Of a stretch of 64,000 nucleotides of DNA, positions 24,522 to 56,340 are shown in pieces (position 1 is the first letter of the stretch; each line of letters begins with the position of its first letter). The notes under the pieces were generated by a model that saw only the letters and a program-made list of their open reading frames with translations, ran no database searches and was not told the DNA's origin. The position numbers were made by a program, and so were the translations under genes. This DNA comes from Geobacillus kaustophilus (GTDB lineage Bacteria; Bacillota; Bacilli; Bacillales; Anoxybacillaceae), in contig NZ_JYBP01000003.1 in the NCBI RefSeq assembly GCF_000948285.1, positions 1,054,001 through 1,118,000 of the forward strand. Reading direction: 5' to 3'.

Positions 24522-24936
24522 GTTAATCATGTTCGGGTAATCGCTGCGGCCGGTTTCGGCCGTAGAGGAAAGTCCATGCTCGCACGGTGCTGAGATGCCC
24601 GTAGTGTTCGTGCCTAGCGAATCCATAAGCTAGGGCAGTCTGGCTTCGGCTGGGCTGACGGCGGGGAAAGAACCTACGTCCGCATGCGGATATGGTTCGA
24701 TTACCCTGAAAGTGCCACAGTGACGCAGCTCTAAGGGAAACCTTAGAGGTGGAACGCGGTAAACCCCACGAGCGAGAAACCCAAATGATGGTAGGGGCAC
24801 CTTCCCGAAGGAAATGAACGGAGGGAAGGACAGGCGGCGCTCGCTGCCTGTAGATAGATGATTACCGCCGGAGTACGAGGCGAAAGCCGCTTGCAGTACG
24901 AAGGTACAGAACATGGCTTACAGAACATGATTAACG
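24522..24936 (+). ncRNA. rnpB: RNase P RNA, Bacillus type B
   Basis: The catalytic RNA that trims tRNA 5' leaders with the RnpA protein. Conserved blocks are unmistakable: GTTCGGGTAATCGCTGC near the 5' end, GAGGAAAGTCCATGCTCGCA, GTGCCACAGTGACG, GGAACGCGGTAAACCCC, GAGCGAGAAACCCAAAT, and near the 3' end GCTTGCAGTACGA and ACATGGCTTACAGAAC. The 5' and 3' ends (GTTAATCATG and CATGATTAAC) pair to form helix P1. Ends are given as the P1 boundaries and could be off by a few bases. The position between gpsB and rlmL matches B. subtilis. Confidence 0.98.
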
Positions 24937-26326: not shown

Positions 26327-28261
26327 ATGGGCCATGAGCGTTATCCGTTTGTTGTAGAAAAACATGAAAACTTTTTTGACAAGTTGAGCCAGTGGATCGG
26401 CGATGTTTTTTATGACATTTTGCCGGAAGCCGGCTTTGAGCTGCGCGACGAGCAAATTTATATGGCGTTTCAGCTCGAGCGGGCGTTTCGCGAAAAAAAG
26501 GTGATCTTCGCCGAAGCGGGAGTTGGCACAGGGAAAACGATCGTGTATTTGCTGTATGCAGTCTGCTACGCCCGCTATACCGGCAAGCCGGCTATTATCG
26601 CCTGCGCCGATGAGACGCTCATTGAGCAGCTCGTCAAAAAGGAAGGCGATATTGCGAAGCTATCGAACGTGCTCGGGCTGGAAATCGACGTCCGGCTGGC
26701 GAAATCGCCGGATCAATATTTGTGTTTGAATAAACTGGAAGAAGTGACGACGTATGACGATGACGACATCGAGCTGTATGAGCAAATTTACGATGAACTT
26801 CCGGCCTTCGTCCATGACAACAAACCGCTGCAGTCGTTCTACCGCTACGGCGACCGAAAAGAATACGCCCACCTGACTGATGAGCAGTGGAAAAAAATCG
26901 CCTGGGATCCGTTTCAAGACTGTTTCACGTGCGAAAAGAGGCACCGCTGCGGACAGACGCTTTGGCGCGACTATTACCGGAAGGCGGCGGATTTGATCGT
27001 CTGCTCGCACGATTTTTATATGGAACATGTTTGGACGTATGAAGCGCGCAAGCGGGAAGGACAGCTGCCGCTGTTGCCGGAAGCGAGCTGCGTCGTATTT
27101 GACGAAGGGCATTTATTGGAGTTCGCAGCGCAAAAGGCGTTGACATATCGAATGAAAGAGACGACGCTTGAGACGTTGCTGACACGTCTTCTTGAAAACG
27201 ACATCCGTGAAGAGCTCGCCTATTTGATTGAGGAGACGCTGGAGACGAGCACGCGCTTTTTTGATGAGCTGAAAGCGTGTGCGAAAGACGTTCCCGGTTC
27301 GAACCGGAAAGAAATTTTGCCGTCGCCGCGTCTTGAACAATGGGCGAAGCGGCTCCGCGGCCAAATGGTCGAAATCGGCAACGAGCTTGTGTTTGAAAGC
27401 GAGACGTATACGATCGATCATTACCAGCTGAACATTGTCGATGAATATTTGGACCAAATCCAGTATTCACTCGATTTGTTTTTAACAAACGCCGACGCCA
27501 TTACGTGGCTTGAGTCGTCGCGTCAAGAGGCGACGTTTGTCGTCATGCCGCGCACCGTTCAAGAAGTGCTGCGTGAAAAAGTGTTCGCGAAACGCATGCC
27601 GTTTGTCTTTTCGTCGGCAACACTATCAAATGGAAAATCATTCCAATATATAGCACAAAGCTTAGGCATTGATGACTATTTATCGTTCAGCGTGCCGTCG
27701 CCGTTTGATTATGACGAACAGATGACGATTTTTATGCCGACGTTCCGTGTGGATGAGACGCTGTTTGCCAAAAAATACGCATATGCGCTTAAAAAATTGC
27801 GCGAAACCGGAGGCCGGGCGCTCATCTTGTTCCCGACGCGCGAGGAGCTTCTTCAGTTTAAAGAGGCGGCAGCCGGCGAACCATTTTCGTTTTTGTTTGA
27901 AGGCGACCGCGAAATCAGCGATTTGGTCGCTGAATTTCAGCGTGAGGAAGAGACGGTGCTTTGTTCTGAACATTTATGGGAGGGGCTGGACATCCCGGGG
28001 CCGTCGCTGTCGAACGTCATCATTTGGTCGCTTCCGTATCCGCCGAACGATCCGGTGTTTCAGGCGAAGCGAAAAGCGTATCGCAACCCGTTTTGGGACG
28101 TCGATGTGCCGTATATGCTTCTTCGCCTTCGCCAAGGAGTCGGACGGCTCATTCGCACGCGTGATGACCGCGGCATCGTTTCCATTTTCGTCACCGACAG
28201 GGAAGAAGAACGGGTCATTGCGGCGATCAAAGACGTGTTGCCGACAGCGGTGAGGGGCTGA
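26327..28261 (+). CDS. DinG/XPD-family ATP-dependent helicase (YpvA)
   Basis: Superfamily 2 DNA helicase, 644 residues. Motif I is EAGVGTGKT, motif II DEGH, and motifs V-VI appear in LWEGLDIPGPSLSNV and RQGVGRLIRT. Cysteines around residues 130-225 (YLCLNK, DCFTCEKRHRCG) could hold the 4Fe-4S cluster of XPD/DinG helicases. The start is ATG 26327, eight bases after GGAGGGG; upstream ATGs are less well placed. The stop codon TGA (28259-28261) lies inside the terminal repeat of an inserted MITE-like element, so the C-terminus may differ from the ancestral one. Repair or recombination role inferred. Confidence 0.85.
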   Translation: MGHERYPFVVEKHENFFDKLSQWIGDVFYDILPEAGFELRDEQIYMAFQLERAFREKKVIFAEAGVGTGKTIVYLLYAVCYARYTGKPAIIACADETLIEQLVKKEGDIAKLSNVLGLEIDVRLAKSPDQYLCLNKLEEVTTYDDDDIELYEQIYDELPAFVHDNKPLQSFYRYGDRKEYAHLTDEQWKKIAWDPFQDCFTCEKRHRCGQTLWRDYYRKAADLIVCSHDFYMEHVWTYEARKREGQLPLLPEASCVVFDEGHLLEFAAQKALTYRMKETTLETLLTRLLENDIREELAYLIEETLETSTRFFDELKACAKDVPGSNRKEILPSPRLEQWAKRLRGQMVEIGNELVFESETYTIDHYQLNIVDEYLDQIQYSLDLFLTNADAITWLESSRQEATFVVMPRTVQEVLREKVFAKRMPFVFSSATLSNGKSFQYIAQSLGIDDYLSFSVPSPFDYDEQMTIFMPTFRVDETLFAKKYAYALKKLRETGGRALILFPTREELLQFKEAAAGEPFSFLFEGDREISDLVAEFQREEETVLCSEHLWEGLDIPGPSLSNVIIWSLPYPPNDPVFQAKRKAYRNPFWDVDVPYMLLRLRQGVGRLIRTRDDRGIVSIFVTDREEERVIAAIKDVLPTAVRG

Positions 28262-28373
28262 CCCAAAAGCGTCATTCTTCTCAAACGAAATACAACATAT
28301 TGCGCATGATTCATTGTTTCGTGGCGATATATGGTGATGAGCAAGGGTGTCCCGATCCTTTTGGGACACCCCC
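28254..28373 (-). mobile_element. MITE-like element, copy C (120 bp, inverted)
   Basis: Inverted copy of the elements at 23712 and 51469, with ends GGGGCTGACCCAAAAG (28254-28269) and its partner at 28358-28373. Internal sequence is nearly identical to the others. It lies between ypvA and ypwA and provides the ypvA stop codon. The GTGTCCC...GGGACAC hairpin plus T run near 28348-28379 should act as terminator for ypvA. Confidence 0.75.
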
Positions 28374-28482
28374 CTTTTTCATTTTCCATAAAAATAGCAT
28401 TTTCTCGCTGGCAAGCAGGAAAACGGCACCTTGTTATGGAAATGATGATACGGCCATGAAATACATAGGGGGACTGAGTATA

Positions 28483-29985
28483 GTGAAACCAATCGAAGCG
28501 CAGTTTTTGCAATACGTGAAAAAAATGACGGGCTACCGCGAAGCGATTGGCCTCATGTATTGGGATTTGCGGACTGGCGCCCCGAAAAAAGGGGTCGAGC
28601 AACGATCAGAAGTGATCGGCATGCTGTCAGAAGAAGTGTTTCGCATGTCAACATCTGAGGAGATGGCAGCATTTATCGCCAAGCTGTCGCCCAAAGCGGT
28701 CTACGAGCAACTGGATGACGTGACAAAGAAAACGCTTGATGAATGCAAAAAAGAATACGAGCGCAATAAAAAAATTCCAGCGGATGAATACAAAGAGTTT
28801 GTCGTGCTTTGTTCCAAAGCGGAAAGCGTTTGGGAAGAAGCGAAAGCGGCTGCTGATTTCGCCCGGTTTCGCCCATATTTGGAGCAAATCATCGAGTTTC
28901 AGCGCCGCTTTATCCATTATTGGGGGTATGAAGGACACCCGTACAATACGCTGCTTGATCAATACGAGCCGGGCATGACCGTCGATTTGCTTGATGAGCT
29001 GTTCAGCCGCCTGCGCGAACGCATCGTCCCGCTTGTGCACGCCATTTCCGTCGCGTCCGACAAGCCGGACACGTCCTTTTTGTTCGCGCCGTTTCCAAAA
29101 GAAAAGCAGCGCGCTTTTCTGCTTGAGTTGCTTAAAGAGCTCGGCTATGATTTTGGCAAGGGGCGGCTTGATGAGACGGTCCATCCATTTGCGATCGGGC
29201 TCAACCCGAACGATGTGCGCATTACGACGCGCTACGACGAGCGCGACTTCCGCACCGCAGTGTTTGGCACGATCCATGAATGCGGCCATGCGCTGTATGA
29301 ACAGCACATTTCCGAGGCGCTTGTCGGCACGCCGCTTGCAAGCGGGGCGTCGATGGGTATTCATGAATCGCAGTCGCTCTTTTTTGAAAATATGATTGGA
29401 CGCCACTACGCGTTTTGGAAGCGCCACTACCCACGCCTGCAGCAATACGCGCCCACGCAGTTCGCCGATGTTTCGCTTGATGCGTTTTACCGGGCGATCA
29501 ATGAAGCGAAGCCGTCGCTCATTCGCATTGAAGCCGATGAATTGACGTACCCGCTTCATATCATCATCCGCTACGAAATCGAAAAACAGCTGTTTGCCGG
29601 GAAGATTGAAGCGGCCGACTTGCCGGATGCATGGAATGAGAAATATGAACAATACCTTGGCATCCGCCCGCACAACGATGCGGTCGGCGTCTTGCAGGAC
29701 GTCCATTGGTCTGGCGGCAGCTTCGGCTATTTCCCCTCGTATGCGCTCGGCTATATGTATGCGGCGCAATTCAAGCAAGCGATGGAAAAAGAGTTGGATG
29801 TAGCTGGGCTGCTTGAAGAGGGGAACATCGCACCGATCCGTGAATGGCTGACCGTTCATATCCACCAGTTTGGAAAAATGAAAAAGCCGCTCGAACTTGT
29901 GCGCGATGCGACGGGTGAAACGCTGAAAGCCGATTATCTTATTCAATATTTAGAAGAAAAATATAAGGCGCTTTATCGATTATAG
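28483..29985 (+). CDS. Carboxypeptidase Taq (M32 metallopeptidase, YpwA)
   Basis: Zinc carboxypeptidase, 500 residues, almost exactly the family length. The active-site motif HECGH (HEXXH) is in FGTIHECGHALYEQH, followed by GIHESQSLFFEN holding the third ligand glutamate, and YPLHIIIRYEIEK further on. M32 enzymes are thermostable cytosolic carboxypeptidases of broad specificity. The frame extends back to 28300 through the MITE, but GTG 28483 after AGGGGGA is the proper start. It follows ypvA as in B. subtilis, and a bidirectional terminator closes it. Confidence 0.9.
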   Translation: MKPIEAQFLQYVKKMTGYREAIGLMYWDLRTGAPKKGVEQRSEVIGMLSEEVFRMSTSEEMAAFIAKLSPKAVYEQLDDVTKKTLDECKKEYERNKKIPADEYKEFVVLCSKAESVWEEAKAAADFARFRPYLEQIIEFQRRFIHYWGYEGHPYNTLLDQYEPGMTVDLLDELFSRLRERIVPLVHAISVASDKPDTSFLFAPFPKEKQRAFLLELLKELGYDFGKGRLDETVHPFAIGLNPNDVRITTRYDERDFRTAVFGTIHECGHALYEQHISEALVGTPLASGASMGIHESQSLFFENMIGRHYAFWKRHYPRLQQYAPTQFADVSLDAFYRAINEAKPSLIRIEADELTYPLHIIIRYEIEKQLFAGKIEAADLPDAWNEKYEQYLGIRPHNDAVGVLQDVHWSGGSFGYFPSYALGYMYAAQFKQAMEKELDVAGLLEEGNIAPIREWLTVHIHQFGKMKKPLELVRDATGETLKADYLIQYLEEKYKALYRL

Positions 29986-30093
29986 AACAGGCGCGTCAGT
30001 GCAAACATCGTTCTTACGCTGTTCGTTGGGATGTCTCAAAGGGCTGCTTTTCTGTCGACAAATATTGTGTCTCAGTTTTATGCACATAAAGAG

Positions 30094-30124
30094 GAAGGTG
30101 TCCCGACTGCTTGGGGACACCTTC
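30094..30124. terminator. Bidirectional terminator between ypwA and the cytochrome oxidase genes
   Basis: GAAGGTGTCCC (30094-30104) pairs with GGGACACCTTC (30114-30124). The core GTGTCCC/GGGACAC resembles the MITE-like element ends found elsewhere in this window. Confidence 0.75.
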
Positions 30125-30129
30125 TTGTT

Positions 30130-31779
30130 TCACCATAATTTGTATCCTTTCGACCCCGGCGGAGCGTTTTGAATGATGTCGATAATCGGCACCGTATAGG
30201 CGATTAAAATGAGCGCAACAACGAGGCCGATCCAAAGTTTCCAGTTTTCAAGCGCCAGCGCAGCCCGTTCATACGGAGCGGCCGCCTCGGCGACCGGAAA
30301 CTCCGTTTCGCCTTTCGGAGCGAAAAATGCCAAGTTGATGACGATCACGAGAATCAAAATAATGCCGATGAACAAAATGGTGCCGCCGACCGCCTGAGCG
30401 ATTTGATACGGGATCCATTCAAGCGCTTGCGGCGAATTGCCGTACGTTGAGAACGCCGAGCGTCGCGGTGCGCCGAGCAGACCGGCGAAATGCATCGAGC
30501 CGGACATGAACGTCATCCCAACCGCCCAAACGATTGTTTGAATGATGGCGAGCCGGTTCATCGCTTTCGTCATCACCCGGCCGGTCAGGTGCGGAATAAG
30601 CCAATACGATGCGCCGAAAAATGTTAAGACAACGGTCGTCGCTACGGTTAAATGGAAGTGGCCAGTCACCCAAATTGTATTATGGACGACTTGGTTGAGC
30701 TGATGCGAGGCGTTAATGATGCCGCCCGTGCCCGCCGGAATGAAAAACAGCATCCCGACAAACGGCGCGAAAAACCGAGCATCGCCCCAAGGCAATTTTT
30801 TGAACCAGCCGAACAAGCCGGTCGCCCCTTGCGAGCGGCCGTACGATTCAAACGTCGCAAACATAGCGAATGCGGTCATGAGCGACGGAATGATGACCAT
30901 GAACGTCAAAACGACTTGCACGTATTTCCAAAACGGCGAAATCCCTGGCTCAAGCAATTGGTGATGGAAGCCGACCGGAATCGAAAACAGCAAAAACAAG
31001 ATGAATGCCAGCCGTGCGAGCGAATCGGAGAACATTTTGCCGCCGATCACTTTCGGAATGACGGCGTACCAAACCATATACGCCGGCAATAGCCAGAAGT
31101 AGACGAGCGGATGCCCGAAATACCAAAACAGCGTCCGGCTCAAAAGCACGTTCACCCGATCGGTGAGTCCGAGCGACCACGGAATAAGCTGGAAGACAAC
31201 AGTCGCGGCAACGCCGAGCGTGCAGACGAGCCATAGCACCATATTCGTCACGGACATGAACGCCAGCAGCGGGCTCACTTGACCGCGGTGCGCCTTCCGC
31301 CAGCGTGCGTAATGGGCAAACATTCCAAAGCCGCTCACCCAGCTGCCGACGACGACAAGCGCCAAGCCGATGTAAAAGCCGGCGTGCGCCTGAAGCGGCG
31401 CATAAAACGTATACAAGACAGACGCCTTGCCGGTTAAGATGAAAAACGCACTCATGGCTGTTCCGATTGTCATCAGCCAAAAACCGATCCAACCGGTCCG
31501 GCGCGAACCGTCTGAGAGCGCCCCGGTTGTACGGCTGACCGCGGCGAACTGAAAGCCGATAATGAAAAACGTCGTCAGCACGAGTCCAAGCAAGACGCCG
31601 TGCGTCGTCAAAATCGTGTAATAGCTGACCCCAGCCGGGAGCTCAAACTTGCCGGAACGGACTAATGTTTGCAATAGGCCGGCGAACCCCCCGAGCGCGA
31701 GGGCGGTAAAGGCGACGAACAAATGGGCAAGCGCCAGTTTCGCATCGCGGCGATCGACTTTTTCCAACGGTTGTGCCAT
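30130..31779 (-). CDS. cbaA: ba3-type cytochrome c oxidase subunit I
   Basis: Heme-copper oxidase catalytic subunit, 549 residues with about 13 membrane helices. Ligand motifs include HGVLLGLVLTTF (low-spin heme region), FGHPLVYFWLLPAYMVWY (copper B histidine with the Tyr region of B-type oxidases) and VTGHFHLTVATTVVLTFF. It reduces O2 to water at a heme-copper centre and pumps protons. Length and companion subunits fit the b(o/a)3 oxidase of thermophilic bacilli. The ATG follows GGTGGAGTAAC, next to the cbaB stop. Last gene of a minus-strand operon. Confidence 0.9.
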   Translation of the reverse strand: MAQPLEKVDRRDAKLALAHLFVAFTALALGGFAGLLQTLVRSGKFELPAGVSYYTILTTHGVLLGLVLTTFFIIGFQFAAVSRTTGALSDGSRRTGWIGFWLMTIGTAMSAFFILTGKASVLYTFYAPLQAHAGFYIGLALVVVGSWVSGFGMFAHYARWRKAHRGQVSPLLAFMSVTNMVLWLVCTLGVAATVVFQLIPWSLGLTDRVNVLLSRTLFWYFGHPLVYFWLLPAYMVWYAVIPKVIGGKMFSDSLARLAFILFLLFSIPVGFHHQLLEPGISPFWKYVQVVLTFMVIIPSLMTAFAMFATFESYGRSQGATGLFGWFKKLPWGDARFFAPFVGMLFFIPAGTGGIINASHQLNQVVHNTIWVTGHFHLTVATTVVLTFFGASYWLIPHLTGRVMTKAMNRLAIIQTIVWAVGMTFMSGSMHFAGLLGAPRRSAFSTYGNSPQALEWIPYQIAQAVGGTILFIGIILILVIVINLAFFAPKGETEFPVAEAAAPYERAALALENWKLWIGLVVALILIAYTVPIIDIIQNAPPGSKGYKLW

Positions 31780-31780
31780 G

Positions 31781-32251
31781 TTACTCCACCACCTTTATGC
31801 GCGCCGTCATCATATGGTGGCCGGCGCCGCAATATTCGTTGCAAAGAATCGTATATTCGCCCGGTTTGTCAAACGTGGTTGTTAAGCTGTTCACATAACC
31901 GGGTTCGACCATCATGTTCACGTTCGTTCCCGGGATTTCAAATCCGTGGATGACGTCTTTCGAAGTGACGTTGATCGTCACTTTCGCTCCTTTTGGAATT
32001 TCGATCGCATTCGGTGTAAAAGAAAACGCGGCGACGACGATGTTCAACTCGTATTCCTTGTCTCCTTTTTTGACGAGCCCCGGATGATCAAACGGCGGGG
32101 TCGAATCGACTTTTTCTGGATCGATCGTCGTCAGGCAGCTCGGCGGCTGCTGTCCGGCGGCGAAGGCGCTTACGCCGACGACTGTCAAAAAGACGATCAA
32201 ACAGCCGATGCCAAACACAAGCCAAATTTTTTCATACTTATGGATGTGCAT
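31781..32251 (-). CDS. cbaB: ba3-type cytochrome c oxidase subunit II (CuA)
   Basis: A 156-residue subunit with one N-terminal transmembrane helix (about 9-31) and a cupredoxin domain outside. The CuA ligands are visible: His in KDVIHGFEIPG and the CNEYCGAGHHMM cluster with two Cys, His and Met. It accepts electrons from cytochrome c and passes them to subunit I. The single helix is typical of ba3-type enzymes (two in aa3 type). ATG after AAAGGAGGAAC. It lies one base from cbaA. Confidence 0.9.
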   Translation of the reverse strand: MHIHKYEKIWLVFGIGCLIVFLTVVGVSAFAAGQQPPSCLTTIDPEKVDSTPPFDHPGLVKKGDKEYELNIVVAAFSFTPNAIEIPKGAKVTINVTSKDVIHGFEIPGTNVNMMVEPGYVNSLTTTFDKPGEYTILCNEYCGAGHHMMTARIKVVE

Positions 32252-32272
32252 TCCAAGTTCCTCCTTTGCCGT

Positions 32273-32419
32273 TTACAGGCGGTGCAAAAATAACAAGTAG
32301 ACGCTGACCCAGGCAAAAATGATGAAAAAGCCAAGCAAAAACACGGATGCCAGCGTGCCTTTGAGCGCCGGCTCTTTTTCCTGTTTCGTTTGCCGGGCCG
32401 CTTCAGCTGTTTTTGCCAT
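32273..32419 (-). CDS. Cytochrome c oxidase subunit IIa-like small membrane protein
   Basis: A 48-residue protein, MAKTAEAARQTKQEKEPALK followed by one hydrophobic helix ending YLLFLHRL. It is the first gene of the oxidase operon, 21 bases before cbaB. Its size, one helix and position match the subunit IIa of ba3 oxidases, which supplies the helix missing from their short subunit II. The ATG has AAGGGGGG upstream. It is too short for ordinary ORF calling but well supported by context. Confidence 0.75.
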   Translation of the reverse strand: MAKTAEAARQTKQEKEPALKGTLASVFLLGFFIIFAWVSVYLLFLHRL

Positions 32420-32622
32420 GTTTGATCCCCCCTTGCTTTGTTGGATTCATTCCCCATAACAGCAATTCGGCAGGTGCGCCAAACGGCCCTTTCCCCGCTT
32501 TGACACTATCATAACTGTACAAAACTGGGGCAACAGTGACTTTTCTCACAAAAATGATGCTGGAAGTGTGAACAAATGGTGACGTTTGTGAAAAAATGAT
32601 GAAAAAGTATGACGGCAAAGGG

Positions 32623-32830
32623 ATGAAGGGAACGCTCTCCCGTCTACGCTAGGGCGTAGAAATTGGGAATTTTTTCGGAACAACCGCCATGCGGCAGGAT
32701 CTCTGTGCGTCCCGCGGTTCAGTTGCCTTGTGAAGGCAACAAACTCAATCTTTGGACGGCACTCCCGTCTTGGTCACGGGCAGCTTCGCATGGCGGCTCC
32801 CATTTTCGTTAGAAGTAAGAGTCTTCACGG
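32623..32830 (+). ncRNA. Orphan structured RNA, HEARO/omega RNA-like, with IS200/IS605-like palindromes
   Basis: An intergenic block with a dense set of stems: CTACGC/GCGTAG (32644-32659) near the left end; a 10-bp outer stem CCGCCATGCG/CGCATGGCGG (32684-32693 with 32787-32796); GTGCGTCC with GGACGGCAC (32705-32712, 32754-32762); a perfect GTTGCCTT/AAGGCAAC (32722-32740); CCCGT/ACGGG (32764-32780); and GAAG/CTTC (32812-32826). The left boundary is an ATGA (32623), the insertion preference reported for HEARO elements, the omega RNAs of IscB. No iscB gene follows. Identity is inferred; the structure is seen. A different leader RNA is possible. Confidence 0.45.
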
Positions 32831-32844
32831 TTGGAGAGGACAAA

Positions 32845-32883
32845 CGAATAATAAGGGTATTTTAGTTTTAAATGTTCGCTTTT
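32845..32883 (+). promoter_or_regulatory. Candidate PurR operator (two inverted PurBoxes)
   Basis: CGAATAAT (32845-32852) faces AATGTTCGCTTTT (32871-32883). The second box reads AAAAGCGAACATT on the other strand, 12 of 13 matches to the Bacillus PurBox AWWWCCGAACWWT; the first is weaker. B. subtilis xpt-pbuX is under both PurR and a guanine riboswitch, as seems true here. A -10 (TATACT, 32921-32926) follows. Confidence 0.5.
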
Positions 32884-32950
32884 TTGTCGGAAACGGCTTC
32901 CCAAACGCCGCTGCTCGTGGTATACTGCTAATAACTGAATCACGCTGACT

Positions 32951-33021
32951 CACTCATATAATCGCAAGAATATGGCTTGCGAGTCTCTACCAGCCGACCG
33001 TAAATCGGCTGACTATGAGTG
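32951..33021 (+). promoter_or_regulatory. Purine (guanine-type) riboswitch aptamer
   Basis: The P1 stem CACTCAT/ATGAGTG closes the aptamer. Core elements ATATAATCGC, AATATGGC, GTCTCTACC and CCGTAAATCGG match the purine riboswitch, and the two loops can form the usual contacts. The specificity base in GACTATGAG is C, which selects guanine, hypoxanthine or xanthine rather than adenine. It controls xpt-pbuX. GGCAATGTC just after it can pair with GACATTGCC of the terminator, so ligand binding favours termination. Confidence 0.95.
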
Positions 33022-33081
33022 GCAATGTCAAGGGAAGGGGGCAATGATGTTTTGCGCCTTTCTTTTGGCTTGGCTTAAAAG

Positions 33082-33122
33082 ACATTGCCTGACTCATGGA
33101 ATGAGTGAGGCCGGTGTTTTTT
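33082..33122 (+). terminator. Riboswitch-controlled terminator before xpt
   Basis: ACATTGCCTGACTCAT (33082-33097) pairs with ATGAGTGAGGCCGGTGT (33101-33117), followed by six T. Its 5' strand can pair instead with the end of the aptamer (antiterminator). Confidence 0.85.
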
Positions 33123-33150
33123 AAGCTTTTTTTATTGGGGGGAACCAAAT

Positions 33151-33738
33151 ATGCGTGAGTTGCTTGAGAAAATCGCCGCTGAAGGGGAGGTCGCCACGGA
33201 CGGGGTGCTGAAAGTCGACCGGTTTTTAAACCATCAAGTGGATCCTCAGCTGATGAAGCGAATCGGCGAGGAGTTTGCCGATCGGTTTCGCGACGAGCGG
33301 CCGACGAAAGTATTGACGCTCGAGTCGTCCGGCATCAGCCCGGCGCTTATGGCCGCCTATGAACTCGGCATTCCGCTTGTCGTTGCCCGCAAGCGGCGGC
33401 CGTTGACGATGACCGGCGACGTGTACCGCACGGAAGTATACTCCTTTACAAAGCAAGAGGCAAATGAAATCATCGTTTCTCGCTCGCTGCTCGGCTGCGG
33501 CGACCGGGTGCTGATCATTGATGATTTTTTAGCCAACGGCCAAGCGGCGCTCGGAATGGCAGAGATCATCGAGCAAGCGGGGGCTGATATGGTCGGCATC
33601 GGTATTGTCATTGAAAAAGCGTTTCAAGACGGCGGCCGGCTGCTTCGTTCGCGGGGCTTCCGTGTTGTGTCGCTCGCCCGCATCGCATCGCTTGATGGTG
33701 GCGCCATTCAATTTGCTGACGAGGTGATGATTCGATGA
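33151..33738 (+). CDS. xpt: Xanthine phosphoribosyltransferase
   Basis: Cytosolic salvage enzyme, 195 residues, which makes XMP from xanthine and PRPP. The PRPP-binding loop is [14 protein letters not shown]; the N-terminal part [13 protein letters not shown] and the flexible loop around [11 protein letters not shown] are typical of Xpt. The ATG follows GGGGGGA. The stop overlaps the pbuX start (ATGA), coupling uptake and salvage. Regulation by the upstream guanine riboswitch and probable PurR site is clear from the leader. Confidence 0.95.
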
Positions 33739-35042
33739 AGATGAAATGGTGGCAAGTTGGGTCGCTCGGCATCCAACATGTATTGGCCATGTACGCCGGG
33801 GCGATCGTCGTTCCGCTCATCGTCGGTGGGGCGCTGCATTTAACGAGCGAGCAGCTGACGTATTTAGTGGCCATTGACTTATTGACGTGCGGCATTGCGA
33901 CGTTTTTGCAAGCGTGGAAAAACAAGTGGTTTGGCATCGGCTTGCCAGTTATGCTTGGCTGCACATTTACGGCGGTCGGGCCGATGATTGCTATTGGTGG
34001 ACAGTATGGGATGCCGGCGGTGTATGGGGCGATCCTTTGCGCCGGAGCGGTTGTGGTGCTCATCAGTCCGTATTTTGGCAAATTGCGGACGTTGTTTCCG
34101 CCAGTTGTCACCGGTTCGGTCGTGACCGTCATTGGCTTGACGCTCATCCCGGCAGCGGTGAACAATATGGCCGGCGGGCAAGGGGCGAAAGACTTTGGTG
34201 ATCCGGCTAACTTGGCGCTGTCGTTTGGCGTGCTTGCGCTCATTATCGTGTTGTACCGCTGCTTCAAAGGGTTCATTCGTTCCATTGCCATTTTGCTCGG
34301 CATGGCAGCTGGCACGGCAACAGCGGCCATGATGGGAAAAGTGAACTGGACAGCGGTCGCTGAGGCATCGTGGGTTCATTGGCCGCAGCCGTTTTACTTC
34401 GGCGTCCCGTCGTTTCATGGGCCCGCTGTTTTCACAATGGTGCTCGTCGCGATCGTCAGCCTTGTCGAATCGACCGGCGTCTACTTCGCTTTATCCGACA
34501 TTTGCCGCCGGCGGCTGACGGATGATGATTTGGCGGGCGGCTACCGCGCCGAGGGATTGGCTATCATCATCGGCGGGCTGCTGAACGCGTTTCCGTACAC
34601 GACGTACTCGCAAAACGTCGGTCTTGTTCAACTATCGGGCGTGAAAACGCGCAGCGTCATTTACGCCGCGGCGGCGTTCCTCGTTTTGCTTGGGTTCGTG
34701 CCGAAAATCGCCGCGGTGGCGACGATCATACCAGCACCGGTTTTAGGCGGGGCGATGCTCGCGATGTTCGGCATGGTCATTGCCTACGGTGTAAAAATGT
34801 TAAGCCAAGTTGACCTAACGTCACAAGAAAACTTGCTGGTCATCGCCTGCTCGGTCGGCGTGGGGCTTGGAGTGACGGCGGTGCCGAACTTGTTTGCCGA
34901 GCTGCCGACCGGCTTGCGCATTTTAACCGACAGCGGCATCGTCGCCGGCAGCATGACCGCCATCATCTTAAACGCCGTCTTCCATTTCGGTAAGGCAAGA
35001 AAATCGGCTGCACTGCCGCTGCAGGAACAAAAAATCTCATAA
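33735..35042 (+). CDS. pbuX: Xanthine permease
   Basis: NCS2-family purine permease, 435 residues, with 12-14 membrane helices. The family signature appears as [18 protein letters not shown] at the start and, later, [19 protein letters not shown] and [20 protein letters not shown]. It imports xanthine with protons for Xpt. The ATG overlaps the xpt stop and follows GAGGTGA. The gene ends at a strong terminator. Confidence 0.95.
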
Positions 35043-35061
35043 TTCTGGTCATGGACTTGGT

Positions 35062-35111
35062 AGTCATCTTCATTTTCCGGGTGTCGCTTGGGAAATGGGG
35101 ATGACTTTTTC
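35062..35111 (+). terminator. Terminator of xpt-pbuX
   Basis: AGTCATC (35062-35068) and inner CATTT/AAATG segments pair with the strand ending GGATGACT (about 35098-35105), followed by a T run. Confidence 0.75.
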
Positions 35112-35196
35112 TTGTTTGCGCCTCGATTGACGGGAAGAATGCTAGAAGATGGTGAAAGGCTGATGGTATAATGGAGAGGAAAAAGGAGGTGAAACA

Positions 35197-35601
35197 ATGG
35201 ACGAATGGGTGGAGCGCCTTTTCGATGAATTGCGGCAAATGCGGACTCAGATGGCGACCAAAGAGGATGTTGCGCGGTTAAACGGGCGCATCGAGCGACT
35301 TGAACAGACCGTGGCGGCGACGAGAGAAGACGTCGCCGCGCTGGATGAGCGCATCGGGACCATCGAGCGGACGATGGCGACGAAAGAGGATGTTGCCGAA
35401 TTGCCGTTTATTCGGCAAGCTGTCGTGGAAACGTTAGAAACGCTCAATGAAATTTCGGCGATGAAACAAACCCTCACAGAAGTGCAGCAAAAAGTCAATG
35501 AAACCATTGCCGGACAAGCCCGGCAAGAGCTCGTGCTTCAATCCCTCGCTTTGCACTTGCTCGAACATGAAAGCGAAATCCGCGCGCTAAAAGCTAGGTA
35601 A
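35197..35601 (+). CDS. Coiled-coil protein, 134 residues
   Basis: No named family is recognised. The sequence is almost wholly heptad-like helix with a repeated unit: MATKEDVARL near residue 19 and MATKEDVAEL near residue 60, separated by a related TREDVAAL. This suggests an internally duplicated coiled coil. There is no membrane segment or signal peptide. A very good site (AAAGGAGGTGAAACA) precedes the ATG. It stands alone between pbuX and bpsA. Repeats of this kind occur in small structural or phage-tail-like coiled-coil proteins, but no function can be assigned. Confidence 0.7.
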   Translation: MDEWVERLFDELRQMRTQMATKEDVARLNGRIERLEQTVAATREDVAALDERIGTIERTMATKEDVAELPFIRQAVVETLETLNEISAMKQTLTEVQQKVNETIAGQARQELVLQSLALHLLEHESEIRALKAR

Positions 35602-35652
35602 ACGACAAACATCTCTATGTACATCCTCGCTCATGATCATTTTCCTTCAAAA

Positions 35653-35683
35653 ACAGGCCGGCTTTGTCCGCGCCTGTTTTTTT
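35653..35683 (+). terminator. Terminator after the coiled-coil gene
   Basis: ACAGGC (35653-35658) pairs with GCCTGT (35672-35677), followed by seven T. Confidence 0.75.
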
Positions 35684-35846
35684 GATTGCTGCAACTTTTC
35701 TTCTTCATATGTTTTTTGGCCGCAAAAAATAAGGGATCGACCTGCTGTTCCTGAAAAAACGGGTGTACAAACACATTTTCCTTTGCATATGGATTGGCGT
35801 GTTGCGCATCCTAATATAGAAAAGAGGAAGAGACCGAGGTGTTTGT

Positions 35847-36914
35847 ATGCCGGTTCTTTTATCCGTCGGCACAGCAAGGATGCCGTATACGGCCGCCCAA
35901 GACGAGGTGAAGCAGCATGTCGCCGGGCTGTTCGCCGGGCGAATGGCGCGTGCGGAGCGGCTGCTGCAGGCATTTGACAACAGCGGCATCCATACGCGCG
36001 CTTTTGTTCAGCCGCTTGCCTGGTACAGCGTGCCGCGCGGCTTTGGAGAAAAAAACGGGGTGTATATCGACCGCGCCGTCCGCTACAGCGGTGAGGCAGT
36101 CAACGACTGTTTGCGCAAGGCTTCGTCCGGCCCTATTTTGCATGAGGAGATCGATGCGCTGTTTTACATCTCAACGACGGGACTGTCGACACCGAGCATT
36201 GAGGCGCGGCTGATGAATGTATTGCCGTTCTCCCCTCATGCCGTAAGAGTGCCGATTTGGGGGCTCGGTTGTGCGGGAGGAGCGGCAGGGCTCGCCCGGG
36301 CAGCCGACTATTGCCGGGCGTTTCCGAATGCCAAGGCGCTTGTGATCGCCGTTGAGTTTTGCAGTTTGACGTTTCAACCCAATGATTGGTCCAAACGCAA
36401 TGTGATCGGTACGTCGCTTTTTTCCGACGGCGTAGCGTGCTTGCTTGTGGCCGGCGACGGAGCGGCGTCGGCAGCCGGCGCACCGCGTGTCATCGCCGCC
36501 CGCTCGGTGCTCATGCCCGGCTCGGAAGACGTGATGGGTTGGGATGTTCGTGACGAAGGTTTGTTTGTCATCTTTTCAAAAGACATTCCGGCAATCGTTC
36601 GTTCTTGGCTGCGCCCGCAAGTCGAGTCGTTTTTGCAGGAACATGGGTTAGGGCTTGGGGATCTTCATTATTTCATCGCCCACCCGGGCGGGAGGAAAGT
36701 CATTGAAGCGTACGAGGAGGCGTTCGGATTTGGTCCGGAACAGACAAAAGCCGCTAGAGACGTGCTCGCCCGCTACGGCAACATGTCGTCGGCCACTGTG
36801 TATTTTGTGCTCGAGCAGATGACGCGGCAGCCGCTTGCGCCCGGGTACGGGCTGCTTGTCGCCCTTGGCCCGGGCTTTAGCGCGGAGATGGTGCTGCTTC
36901 AATGGGAGGGATGA
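35847..36914 (+). CDS. bpsA: Type III polyketide synthase (BpsA type)
   Basis: Chalcone synthase-like enzyme, 355 residues, that extends long-chain acyl-CoA with malonyl-CoA to alkylpyrones. The catalytic triad is visible: Cys about 142 in GLGCAGGAAGLA, His in FIAHPGGRKV and Asn in YGNMSSATV; LALGPGF-like GLLVALGPGFSAE closes the fold. In B. subtilis bpsA and bpsB make triketide pyrones and their methyl ethers, and the bpsB homologue follows directly here. ATG after GAGGTG. The frame neighbours dynA as in B. subtilis. Confidence 0.9.
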   Translation: MPVLLSVGTARMPYTAAQDEVKQHVAGLFAGRMARAERLLQAFDNSGIHTRAFVQPLAWYSVPRGFGEKNGVYIDRAVRYSGEAVNDCLRKASSGPILHEEIDALFYISTTGLSTPSIEARLMNVLPFSPHAVRVPIWGLGCAGGAAGLARAADYCRAFPNAKALVIAVEFCSLTFQPNDWSKRNVIGTSLFSDGVACLLVAGDGAASAAGAPRVIAARSVLMPGSEDVMGWDVRDEGLFVIFSKDIPAIVRSWLRPQVESFLQEHGLGLGDLHYFIAHPGGRKVIEAYEEAFGFGPEQTKAARDVLARYGNMSSATVYFVLEQMTRQPLAPGYGLLVALGPGFSAEMVLLQWEG

Positions 36915-36916
36915 TC

Positions 36917-37489
36917 GTGCGGTTTCTGTTCGTGTTTTTGGCGGTTGCCGGCATGCGCGTCATTGAGCTTCGGCTTGCAAAACGGAACGAACAGTATGTG
37001 AAAGCGCTCGGGGCGCGGGAGTTCGGCGCTCGCCATTACCCGTTGATCGTATTGATGCATGTCGGTTTCTTTTTGTCGTTGGCTGTTGAGGCGCTTCGAA
37101 AAGGCGCGCGCCCGTCGCGCCGCTGGCCGCTCTTGTTTCCGCTTTTTCTTGTCGTGCAAGGGCTGCGCGTATGGACAATTGGATCGCTCGGCCGTTTTTG
37201 GAATACGAAAATTTTGATCGTGCCAAACGGCCAAGTAGTGAAAAAAGGGCCGTACCGATGGATCCGCCACCCCAACTATCTCGTCGTGGCTTTCGAGATC
37301 GCCCTGTTGCCGCTGTTGTTCGAAGCACATATAACCGCTATCGTGTTTTCGCTTCTCAATGCACTTTTGCTGTCCGTTCGCATCAATGTTGAGGAACAGG
37401 CGTTGGCGGCGTTCACGGACTATCGGGAAGCGTTCCGCGCCCGGCCGCGCTTTTGGCCAAAGATTTTCGGAACGCTGCGGCCCTCTTAA
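36917..37489 (+). CDS. bpsB: Isoprenylcysteine methyltransferase-like alkylpyrone methylase (BpsB)
   Basis: Membrane methyltransferase of 190 residues of the ICMT/YpbQ family. It has four or five hydrophobic helices and the C-terminal motif GPYRWIRHPNYLVVAFE, with the conserved RHPxY that binds SAM. In B. subtilis BpsB O-methylates alkylpyrones made by BpsA. The GTG at 36917 lies six bases after GGGAGGG and is preferred to the ATGs at 36902 and 36911, which overlap the site. It sits immediately after the bpsA stop. Confidence 0.85.
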   Translation: MRFLFVFLAVAGMRVIELRLAKRNEQYVKALGAREFGARHYPLIVLMHVGFFLSLAVEALRKGARPSRRWPLLFPLFLVVQGLRVWTIGSLGRFWNTKILIVPNGQVVKKGPYRWIRHPNYLVVAFEIALLPLLFEAHITAIVFSLLNALLLSVRINVEEQALAAFTDYREAFRARPRFWPKIFGTLRPS

Positions 37490-37627
37490 AGCGGCGGTCA
37501 ACGAAACTAAATTGGCTGATAGGAAAAGAATGGGGCGCGGTGTTTTCTCCTATTCTTATATAAGGTTGGTGAAAAACAACGGATTCGCTCGGTCCGTGAG
37601 AAATCACATGGAATGAAAACAAGGTGT

Positions 37628-37671
37628 TGCAAAGTTTCTTAGTTTGAGAAATACTGCTGTAAAGCTTTGCA
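37628..37671 (+). other. Nested hairpin in the 317-base gap before dynA
   Basis: TGCAAAG (37628-37634) pairs with CTTTGCA (37665-37671), and TTTCT (37635-37639) with AGAAA (37647-37651) inside it. There is no T run, so it is not an obvious terminator. The rest of the gap 37490-37806 shows no convincing gene. Confidence 0.4.
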
Positions 37672-37806
37672 TTCGTTAAATCACCGGCCTTCTATGCGAT
37701 CCTGTCCTCTTGTGGGCGGGATTTTTCATTTTTTCTATTGGGAAACGGGGCGAAATGCAGTAAAATGAATGTAAATGACATTGACGGAAACAAAGGGGTT
37801 TTGGTC

Positions 37807-40800
37807 ATGGGGCATATTGCGATTGAGCGGCCGTCATTGCGGCTGTGGCTTTCGAAAATGATCGACATGCACGATCAGCTTCAGTCCGCCGATGACCAGG
37901 AGCATGCGGACAAAGTGAAGCAGCTCATCAAAAAAGCGGCATCCGGTGAGCTTATTGTCGCGTTTTGCGGCCATTTTTCCGCCGGCAAATCGAGTTTGAT
38001 CAACGCGTTGCTCGGCGAGCCGATGCTGCCGTCCAGCCCGATTCCGACGAGCGCCAATCTCGTCAAAGTGAAAGCCGGTCCGGACTATGTGCGCGTCTTT
38101 TTCCACCGCGATGAGCCGGTCGAGTATGAACCGCCGTACGACCCGGACTTGATTCGCGCCCAATGCCGGGACGGGGAGACGATCGAATGGATTGAAATCA
38201 GCCGAACGACGGACGCCATCCCGCCGGGGGTCGCTATCCTAGATACGCCGGGCATCGATTCGACCGATGACGCCCATCGGCTGGCGACGGAGTCAGCGCT
38301 TCATTTGGCGGATGTCGTCTTTTACGTCATGGATTATAACCATGTGCAGGCGGAATTAAATTTCCAATTTACGAAACAATTAACAGATGAAGGAAAGACC
38401 GTTTATTTGATCATCAACCAAATCGATAAACATCGCGACGACGAGCTGCCGTTCGCTGAATTTCGCGCCTCGGCCGCCGAGGCGTTCCGGCGTTGGGGGG
38501 TTGAGGCGGCCCGTTTGTTTTTCTTGTCGCTGAAGGACCCGTCACATCCGCACAACGAATGGCATGAGCTTGTCGCTTGTTTGCGCCGGTTGTTTGCCGA
38601 CAAGGAGGAATGGCTCGTCCGCGGCGCCGAGTCGGCGTTAAAACGGATCGCCGCCCGCCATCTTGAGCATCTCCGAGCGCGGCACGAGCCGCTTGAGCAA
38701 GAGATTGAGGCGCGCCTCGAGGCGCTTGGCGGCGCCGATGACGAGGCGGCGGCCATCGCGGAGCTCGATCGCCTTGAGGAGGAGCTTGCCGATTGGCAAA
38801 CAGCGCCCGTGCGGGCAGAGGGGGCGTTCCGTTCGGAGCTTGAGCGCGTGTTGCAAAACGCGTACGTGATGCCGTTTGAGACGAGGGAGCGGGCTGAGGC
38901 GTACTTGCAGGCGATGCAGCCGAATTTCAAAGTGGGCTTGTTGTTCGCGAAGACAAAAACGGAGCAAGAGCGCAAGCGGCGGCGCAAATCGAATGGCACG
39001 TCCGCCAGCTCCTTGTTCAGTTTGGGAAAGAATGGAATGATGATGACGCTTGGCTCAGCGAGTCCCAGCAATGGACGGCGGAGTGGGATGAGACGATGCT
39101 TGCCGGCCTCGTCAAACAAGGGGCGGAATCAAGCGGCGCCGCGCTATTAAATTATACGGATGAGGTGGCGGCGGCGCTGAAGAAACTCTACCGAGACTCG
39201 GCGCTCGCCTTGTTTGCCGGACTGAAGGAACAAATCGCCAAACGGGCGGCCGCTCAAACAGAAATATTGAACGGACAGCTTTCGGCAGCGCGCGAAAAAG
39301 TGGAGATCACCGCCCGCCTCGCCCGCCTCAGAGCCGAGCAGGACGAGCGCCGGCGTGCGTTCGAGCAGCTGATCGCGGCTCCACGCGAGTCTGCATCGCT
39401 TGATGAAAACCGTCTCGCCGCGTTGACGGAGCCGCCGGTCTTCCGGAAAGCGCGTCATGCCGAGGCGGCAAAACCGCAAGCAGCATCCAAGCCAGCGGAA
39501 ACAAACCGTCTTTCCGCCAAAGAGCAAGCGCTCGGTCAGGAAGCGGCCGGCCTCGGAGTGAGCGAAAGAGCGGACGAAGCTCGGACGCTTTCAAGCGGCG
39601 GAAAACAGCGGAGCGAAGAGGCGGCCGAGCGGCTTGAGGAAGCGGCGGCTTGGCTTGAACGGTTCGAAATGCTTGGCCGCTTCGCTGGACCGTTGCGCGA
39701 CAAGGCGCGCCGGCTTCGCGAGCGATCGTTTACCGTCGCCTTGTTTGGCGCCTTCAGCGCCGGCAAATCGTCGCTGGCGAACGCCTTGCTCGGCGCCCCG
39801 CTTCTGCCGTCGTCGCCCAACCCGACAACCGCCGCTATCAGCAAAATCGCGCCGCCCGATCACGAGTATCAGCACGGCACGGCGGTGGTCAAGGTGAAAA
39901 GCGAACCGCAAATTTGGACGGATGTGCAATCGTCGCTTCGGCAGTGCGGCTATGAGGCGGATACATGGGATGAAGCGCTCCGCCTTTGCGCCCGCCTGGC
40001 TGAATCGGGAGCCGAACATCCGGCGCAAAAGCCGCATGTGTCTTTTTTGGCAGCTGCCGCGGCCGGCTATGAGCGGATGAACGGTCGATTCGGGGAGATC
40101 GTCTCCATCGGTTGGGAAGAACTCGAGACGTATGTCGCTGACGAAGCGGTGTCATGTTTCTTAGATGAGGTCGTGTTGTACGCCGACTGTCCACTCACCC
40201 GCCAAGGGGTGACGCTTGTGGATACCCCGGGGGTGGACTCGCTGAACGCCCGCCATACGGGAGTGGCGTTTCATTACATGAAGCATGCTGATGCGTTGTT
40301 GTTTGTGACGTATTACAACCATGCGTTCTCGAAAGCAGACCGCGAGTTTTTGCTTCAGCTTGGGCGCGTCAAAGACGCGTTTGCTCTTGATAAAATGTTT
40401 TTCATCATCAATGCGGCCGATTTGGCCCAGTCGAAAGAGGAGCTTGAGGCCGTCATTTCCTATATGAATGGCGAGCTCGCCCGCTTCGGCATCCGCTTCC
40501 CGCGCCTTTATGCGCTCTCAAGCCGTTTGGCGTTGGCGGAAAAAGCAGGAGCGGAAGCCGTTTCACACGGCGTCTTGTCTGATTCCGGCCTTCCCGCGTT
40601 TGAGGCTGACTTCTTCCGCTTCTTAACGGAAGAACTGGCGGAAGTCGCCGTCGAGAGCGCATATACCGAGCTTGAGCGGGCGCGGCGGACGACAGAGGAA
40701 TTCGCGCGCGCCGCCGGGCAAAGCGAAGCGGAAAAAGCGGCGAAACGGCAGGCGCTTGAGGCGGTGAAAACGAAGATGCACGCCGTGCTGGCTGGCATTG

Positions 40801-56103: not shown

Positions 56104-56340
56104 AGAGAGCGGCTCCCCCGCAAACGACTCACCCACCTACGCGAGTGCATAGGGGTGGCTTTCTGCGATTTGCATATGTGCCAAACGACAAGCCGCACAA
56201 GGACCCTTTCCGCTTCTCTTCGTTTCGAAGGTGCCCGTTTGAACAACATGTGATTCGATCCGACGGCGATTGCCGGCCAAAATTCATCTCCCACATTGAC
56301 GGGTGCTCGTGCACCTTCACGTTTCGAAGTGGGAGACTTC
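56104..56340 (+). mobile_element. Palindrome-associated element with TnpB-type omega RNA-like right end
   Basis: The left part carries an imperfect hairpin, CCACC/GGTGG with inner CTA/TAG (56133-56158). The right part has an 8-bp stem TCTCCCAC/GTGGGAGA (56287-56294 with 56329-56336) enclosing GGTGC/GCACC (56302-56315). GAAGGTGC (56227-56234) is complementary to GCACCTTC (56311-56318), giving a pseudoknot, and CGTTTCGAAG is repeated (56221, 56320). This layout resembles the omega RNA at the right end of IS200/IS605 TnpB elements, ending near GTGGGAGACTTC, but there is no tnpA or tnpB. Such nuclease-free forms are known as PATEs in Geobacillus. Assignment inferred. Confidence 0.5.

Follow-up and report, generated by a model that had tools for sequence, protein, structure and literature searches.

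A probable core-deleted IS200/IS605 TnpB element with an incomplete reRNA scaffold in Geobacillus kaustophilus, and related mini-elements of the genus

The element and its closest described relatives

HEARO/IscB omega RNAs are, like the reRNAs of TnpB, guide RNAs associated with IS200/IS605 elements. In ISDra2, the TnpB reRNA is an RNA from the 3′ end of tnpB and the right end of the element, and the flank 3′ of the right end provides the guide (PMC8612924; PMC10097598). Its scaffold comprises stems 1 to 4 together with a pseudoknot that involves the last bases. RuvC is contacted by stems 2 and 3a, and stem 3b is dispensable, its removal having raised activity (PMC10097598). Cleavage by TnpB has been reported to be inhibited by TnpB's own mRNA (PMC10278001). 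The palindrome-associated transposable elements (PATEs) of Haloquadratum walsbyi are transposase-free, with near-terminal palindromes like those of IS605-type ends, and some of them arise by core deletion of TnpB-coding IS605-type elements (PMC3119063). The available text of that 2011 description does not link PATEs to guide RNAs, whereas the bacterial mini-elements described here often keep a reRNA scaffold.

In this study, we analysed a stem-rich block that is flanked in G. kaustophilus by the cba oxidase operon and the riboswitch of xpt, within a stretch of 64,000 nt (the window). The sequence-only reading had proposed that it is an orphan HEARO/IscB omega RNA without its nuclease. The block is very probably a core-deleted IS200/IS605 TnpB-only element, PATE-like and in the past probably moved in trans by a Y1 transposase; its reRNA lies on the minus strand and points to the side of the oxidase genes. 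The parts assigned to it are as follows.

32630–32839, minus, left end to right end: whole mini-element of 210 bp, derived from an IS200/IS605 TnpB-only element and lacking TnpB; both ends called by homology, joined by the covariance model for the right end and by a pattern for the left
32630–32728, minus: right end with orphan TnpB reRNA (omega RNA) scaffold; model R1, 44.7 bits, E 3.9e-11, and stem counts
32636–32669, minus: right-end hairpin (reRNA stem 4; near-terminal palindrome), 7/10 scored pairs retained
32684–32693, no strand: outer-stem arm one, CCGCCATGCG; same register in relatives, weakly supported
32729–32802, minus: decayed tnpB 3′ end, about 25 zinc-ribbon codons; boundaries approximate, frame read by eye
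32787–32796, no strand: outer-stem arm two, CGCATGGCGG, within the tnpB remnant
32803–32839, minus: truncated left end; left arm of its near-terminal palindrome present, right arm gone
32840–32844, minus: target/TAM pentamer, degenerate (TTTGT); the Geobacillus jurassicus copy has TTTAT
32610–32629, minus: sequence in guide position, immediately 3′ of the right end
About 32600–32965: tract common with G. jurassicus, holding the element; its right edge is clear and its left one poorly defined; from windowed identities and alignment

With full-length relatives and many TnpB-less mini-copies in the genus, the block fits the known PATE kind. Of the near-terminal palindromes that PATEs have, it has kept 7 of 10 pairs on the right and only half on the left. 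TnpB-only IS200/IS605 elements of the same genus (about 1380 bp), which we take to be of the IS1341 type, have the same ends, flanking pentamer and reRNA; the block differs from them in being internally deleted to 210 bp. Compared with ISDra2, the GGACGC–GCGTTC helix of the block's family corresponds in place to the pseudoknot (PMC10097598), the pentamer beside the left end is TTTAT rather than TTGAT, and the block has neither a tnpB gene nor stem 3a.

Alignment of the block with full-length copies leaves gaps of 3, 15 and 14 bases, of which the first two lie in the tnpB remnant and the third takes out the 5′ strand of stem 3a; both strands of the pseudoknot (GGACGC/GCGTTC), which joins the stem-1 loop to the terminus of the right end, are intact. 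At loci L001 and L006, tblastn coverage by the family TnpB was zero, the short decayed remnant being visible in the DNA alignment only. By eye, we recognised no iscB, tnpB or tnpA gene among the listed open reading frames of at least 50 aa over 28000–38000, which upholds the earlier statement that iscB and tnpA are missing. The left-end pattern has a single match in the window, at the predicted place (32823–32844, minus, 3 mismatches), where 0.16 were expected; at least one match somewhere in the window was found in 13 of 100 shuffles.

RNA family and dispersed relatives of the block

At gathering scores, cmscan of the window returned only RNase P (24529–24925) and the purine riboswitch (32934–33035), the latter complete. 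The former is a complete bacterial class B RNase P RNA on the plus strand (325.6 bits). Over 32400–33150, the Rfam HEARO model (RF02033) gave no match at E up to 10, and the only two further matches there were to microRNA models, weak and below their cut-offs. At E 0.001 the HEARO model likewise found nothing in the genome that carries the block, and 14 control genomes were silent as well. As a positive control, it scored above cut-off in 4 of the 14 genomes of the genus; therefore the model is effective in this lineage. At G012:C1:3311072–3311271, directly beside a strong match, lies a second one that is weak (37.2 bits, below cut-off), possibly a decayed or orphan HEARO.

A covariance model, R1, was built from the 112-base right ends of 20 copies with the block excluded. 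It matches the block on the strand running from the 3′ end of tnpB into the right end, and the score, with E-values that are rough owing to a short calibration, is low beside the 141 bits of the best copies among the matches listed. Up to E 10, R1 had one other match in the window, at 56133–56158 on the minus strand (10.9 bits, E 0.48). The sequence there is a palindrome resembling the right-end hairpin, a candidate unproven as an element. Across the genus, R1 at E 0.001 found matches in all 14 genomes, 200 by per-genome counts, weak ones and some from other reRNA subfamilies included.

By these searches the block is not a HEARO/IscB RNA, since it lacks a HEARO match and clearly matches the TnpB reRNA model. 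A HEARO/IscB omega RNA stranded without iscB would belong to the same broad IS200/IS605 world, the block is structured, and HEARO loci do occur in 4 of the 14 genomes; but the silence of the HEARO model at the block and in its genome, the clear match to a TnpB reRNA, and the remnant beside the scaffold, which aligns with the zinc-ribbon code of tnpB, make that reading extremely improbable. HEARO is a different RNA family. What stands of the sequence-only reading is a guide-RNA scaffold stranded without its nuclease, PATE-like and with IS200/IS605-type ends; its IscB identity gives way to a TnpB reRNA.

When the block was used as a DNA query, it matched five places in its own genome, itself included, and 9 of 61 genomes (again including its own), all of one genus; distant blastn of plasmid and phage collections gave no match. 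On the other strand, many of the homologous loci encode a TnpB C-terminus (..HDRDENAARNIL..) that runs to a stop and is followed by an RNA-like right end, the last bases of which are GAGCGTTC. Full-coverage copies of about 1380 bp consist of TTTAT, the left end, a TnpB of 367–375 aligned residues and the same right end as the block, and among the copies found no full-length element matched the block end to end. The family TnpB matches PF01385, PF07282 and PF12323; its best PDB match is an AI-designed nuclease (9yyg), followed by chains named TnpB (8h1j and 8bf8, E about 1e-101), which are presumably ISDra2 TnpB. In the genome of the block, the three tnpB copies with the block-type right end (L046, L047 and L061) are all truncated or interrupted, and open TnpBs belong to other subfamilies, e.g., L048 (373 aa). 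Open TnpB frames of the block's own subfamily (L014, L019 and L028) occur in G. jurassicus (G007), as does a further locus, L114, with full tnpB coverage. A second TnpB reRNA subfamily is represented by L048, L105, L111, L135 and L149, with the terminus ATGTC or similar and the stem-1 loop GGACAC or GGGCAC, which suggests that the pseudoknot co-varies between subfamilies.

Compensatory changes, which the sequence-only reading had proposed to look for among homologues, were found across the family, for a TnpB RNA rather than for HEARO. When 57 matches from 56 chosen sources were aligned to R1, 91.3% of cells were paired, in an alignment that leans to the model, being fitted to R1's own structure and including 5 of the 20 training loci; sliding the partners lowered pairing to 41–60%. 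Both-side changes were present in 16 of 32 pairs (1/500 shuffles as high) and in 43 cells, against 16.5 in shuffles (0/500 as high). In the helix of GGACGC with the terminal GCGTTC, 4 of 6 pairs changed on both sides.

Those stems of the first description that we checked were present: the arms of the outer stem (32684–32693 with 32787–32796) are perfect 10-bp complements, 32722–32740 folds into a perfect hairpin of 8 bp around a 3-base loop, and small hairpins lie at 32644–32659 and 32812–32826. ATGA does occur at 32623–32626, 4 bases outside the right end, but not as the insertion context proposed for it, the left end abutting TTTGT/TTTAT. Taken alone, the outer stem is only mildly unusual: 7 of 500 dinucleotide shuffles of the 208-base stretch contain a perfect 10-bp inverted repeat, and so do 34 of the 614 overlapping tiles taken across the window. 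The idea that the stem is conserved for a function was rejected as not well supported: 78.7% of cells were paired, both-side changes occurred in 2 of 12 pairs, and 6 of the 12 departed in relatives by mismatches only. Its 5′ arm lies within tnpB code, and therefore protein constraint may account for much of the pairing. In columns 22–33 with 158–169 of alignment A2, base-pairing is possible in full-length elements between the zinc-ribbon code of tnpB and stem 3b (its loop and 3′ side), with a possible link to the inhibition that TnpB's mRNA is reported to exert on cleavage (PMC10278001).

The fold of 32623–32840 is ordinary on the plus strand (z −1.23; 28 of 200 shuffles equally good) and stands out on the minus strand (z −4.42; 1 of 200). 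The plus-strand value would suit a chance structured intergenic region or a part of the xpt leader. However, the dispersed copies and the R1 match show by homology that the block is more than chance, and in 7 other species the aligned sequence upstream of xpt lacks it, so the probability left to this explanation is negligible.

State of the scaffold and history of the site

A first consensus fold of long sequences was set aside in favour of the published ISDra2 layout, and stems 2 and 3a were assigned in the family by our own mapping of that layout. All 14 full-coverage copies have complete stems 1, 2 and 3a (5/5 each) and a complete pseudoknot (6/6), "full" meaning full tnpB coverage; several of them (L029, L117, L119 and L121) match in more than one piece and are probably frameshifted. 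The block retains the pseudoknot (6/6), 3/5 pairs of stem 1, 4/5 of stem 2, 0/5 of stem 3a and 7/10 of stem 4; the G. jurassicus copy has the same counts except for stem 1 (4/5). Stem 3a scored at least 4/5 in 35 of 35 mini-elements, 0/5 in both copies of the block and 3/5 in the truncated copy L010. Stems 1, 2, 3a and 4 are thus not all formed in the block, which holds a homologous remnant with an incomplete scaffold. Because stem 3a, which contacts RuvC in ISDra2 TnpB, is lost, we judge by analogy with ISDra2 that the RNA of the block, if made, would no longer guide TnpB, and that the block may be regarded as a fossil rather than a working guide RNA. It is probably inactive today, although the perfect pseudoknot points mildly against a pure fossil, which need not keep it.

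The cba-side flank is present in all 14 genomes of the genus, and the block is held at the site by two, its own and G. jurassicus NBRC 107829 (contig NZ_BCQG01000013.1). Its presence at the same place in all relatives, named beforehand as evidence for a part of the xpt leader, was therefore not found, and this occupancy speaks for a mobile element. Among the 12 genomes without the block no clean empty site was found: seven align on both flanks with 106–316 unalignable bases between, and five have no near-right-flank alignment in the fetched stretch. The corresponding place reads TTTAT in G004 and CTTAT in G006.

The region 32600–32965 appears to be of mosaic ancestry, near-identical to G. jurassicus, with sequence to the right that fits G013. 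Over 32843–32945 the genome of the block is identical to G. jurassicus (103/103) and agrees with G013 at 79/103, whereas over 33036–33150 it agrees with G013 at 113/115 and with G. jurassicus at 98/115; the switch on the left is less clear (32501–32600: G013 99/100, G. jurassicus 95/100). From these identities we infer that a tract of about 0.36 kb with the block moved between lineages and that the block became common to the two species by recombination. Compared with G. jurassicus, the parts of the block are 94–96% identical, the right flank is 98.9% identical and the left flank 95.7% (66/69, plus a gap of 9 bases). In the block, 11 of the 213 aligned bases are changed, and in the right flank none of 103 (P 0.013, in a comparison chosen post hoc), which is not what would be expected from constraint on the block.

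These data bear on the idea of an active orphan reRNA, in which a minus-strand transcript would load a TnpB acting in trans, cut empty alleles and spread the block by homing. The retained pseudoknot and stem 2 agree with it, G. jurassicus has open TnpBs of the same subfamily and the genome of the block has open ones of others, and the identical tract at 32843–32945 is what co-conversion would yield; ordinary recombination, however, yields the same tract. Against activity stand the state of stems 3a, 1 and 4, the truncated or interrupted tnpBs that share the right end in the block's genome, the changes in the block beside an unchanged right flank, and a simple consensus scan of 32380–33160 in which no promoter-like site appeared on the minus strand. 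We consider such activity improbable. Within its own genome, no other site matches the guide-position sequence perfectly; the search of two genomes gave no second perfect target, and one site with 3 mismatches lies at G000:C3:1388205.

It had also been suggested that the block is a domesticated RNA affecting xpt-pbuX or cba. As a regulatory RNA or promoter part it would be well placed, lying between two divergent transcription units; it has been retained in two species, and a weak sigma-70-like plus-strand match (32824–32852) starts within the left end. Yet 12 of the 14 genomes lack the block and stem 3a is gone, the number of promoter-like matches, two, stands against 0.7 (sd 0.8) in shuffles, the purine riboswitch is complete and has a promoter-like site of its own at 32898–32926, and the block shows no excess conservation. 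Domestication is accordingly a most improbable account.

The reading as a core-deleted element would run as follows. Internal deletion of an element of about 1380 bp would have given the 210-bp block, which would have been moved in trans by a Y1 transposase in the past and inserted 3′ of a (degenerate) TTTAT pentamer; the two species would then have come to share it via recombination, and the block would since have lost its mobility. Y1 transposase genes are present in 11 of the 14 genomes, that of the block included. Two full-length ones in the latter, which by coordinates adjoin TnpBs of another subfamily, could have moved the block in trans.

TnpB-less mini-elements across the genus

Many TnpB-less mini-copies of about 60–250 bp occur in the genus beside the full-length relatives of about 1380 bp. 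Starting from the model, which favours scaffold-bearing copies by design, we parsed 102 loci, a part of the 200 matches, and obtained 95 that were distinct by their last 150 bases. Thirteen have full tnpB coverage and 18 have partial coverage; by a fuzzy left-end rule (up to 6 errors, no control), a left end lies within 340 bp in two of the 18 and in 34 loci without tnpB. The remaining 30, with neither tnpB nor left end, include the mis-anchored L096 (at a contig end), weak matches and the block itself, the last because its left end exceeds the fuzzy limit. The open copy L014 was masked in this census by L002, a truncated copy with identical ends.

Starting instead from the left end, we found 60 exact pattern matches in 11 of the 14 genomes and none to the reversed pattern. 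These represent 51 distinct matches: 16 of at most 125 bp without a scaffold, three with part of it, 12 (157–250 bp) with a scaffold and no tnpB, five with a tnpB remnant, six of full length and nine without a recognised right end, three of which have scaffold motifs. In 31 of the 51, a right end lies within 250 bp and tnpB is absent. Twelve elements of 62–63 bp without a scaffold (L162, L173, L177, L182, L183, L185, L196, L198, L199, L216, L218 and L219) occur across several species and look like fusions of the left-end and right-end hairpins.

Among 35 scored short elements that bear a scaffold, two of which (L124 and L126) carry tnpB remnants of 37–48 residues and some pairs of which are one insertion in two or several species, 18 have at least 4/5 pairs in each of stems 1, 2 and 3a and a 6/6 pseudoknot, stem 4 being outside this threshold. 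Scaffold retention was rejected as proof of selection, given that 16 of the 51 left-end matches are elements of at most 125 bp without a scaffold. TnpB-less elements of about 165–251 bp with intact core reRNA stems (L023, L104, L106, L109, L123, L137 and others) are found in several species, and the class of about 165 bp (157–168 bp) has 8 copies among the G. jurassicus loci read. In a class of 172–180 bp (L098, L128, L147 and L155), one side of stem 3b is lost (2/5) and stems 1, 2 and 3a are retained; these elements are a naturally occurring equivalent of the engineered Trim2 omega RNA. Our literature search, with key subscription literature outside its scope, found no paper on TnpB-less mini-elements that retain a reRNA in this genus.

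Such mini-elements with an intact reRNA, loaded by TnpB made elsewhere, could be non-autonomous RNA-guided homing elements, a proposal that we hold to be unlikely. If it were true, each mini-element would program the cutting of its own empty site and so spread or be retained, and the block would be an old product of this process, its shared flanks being the footprint of co-conversion.

In summary, the block alone is an ordinary fossil, but it leads to a swarm of mini-elements, spread across the genus, whose guide RNA is separated from the nuclease gene. This swarm is the livelier lead, and natural pairs from one genus would allow TnpB to be tested on stand-alone reRNAs in trans.
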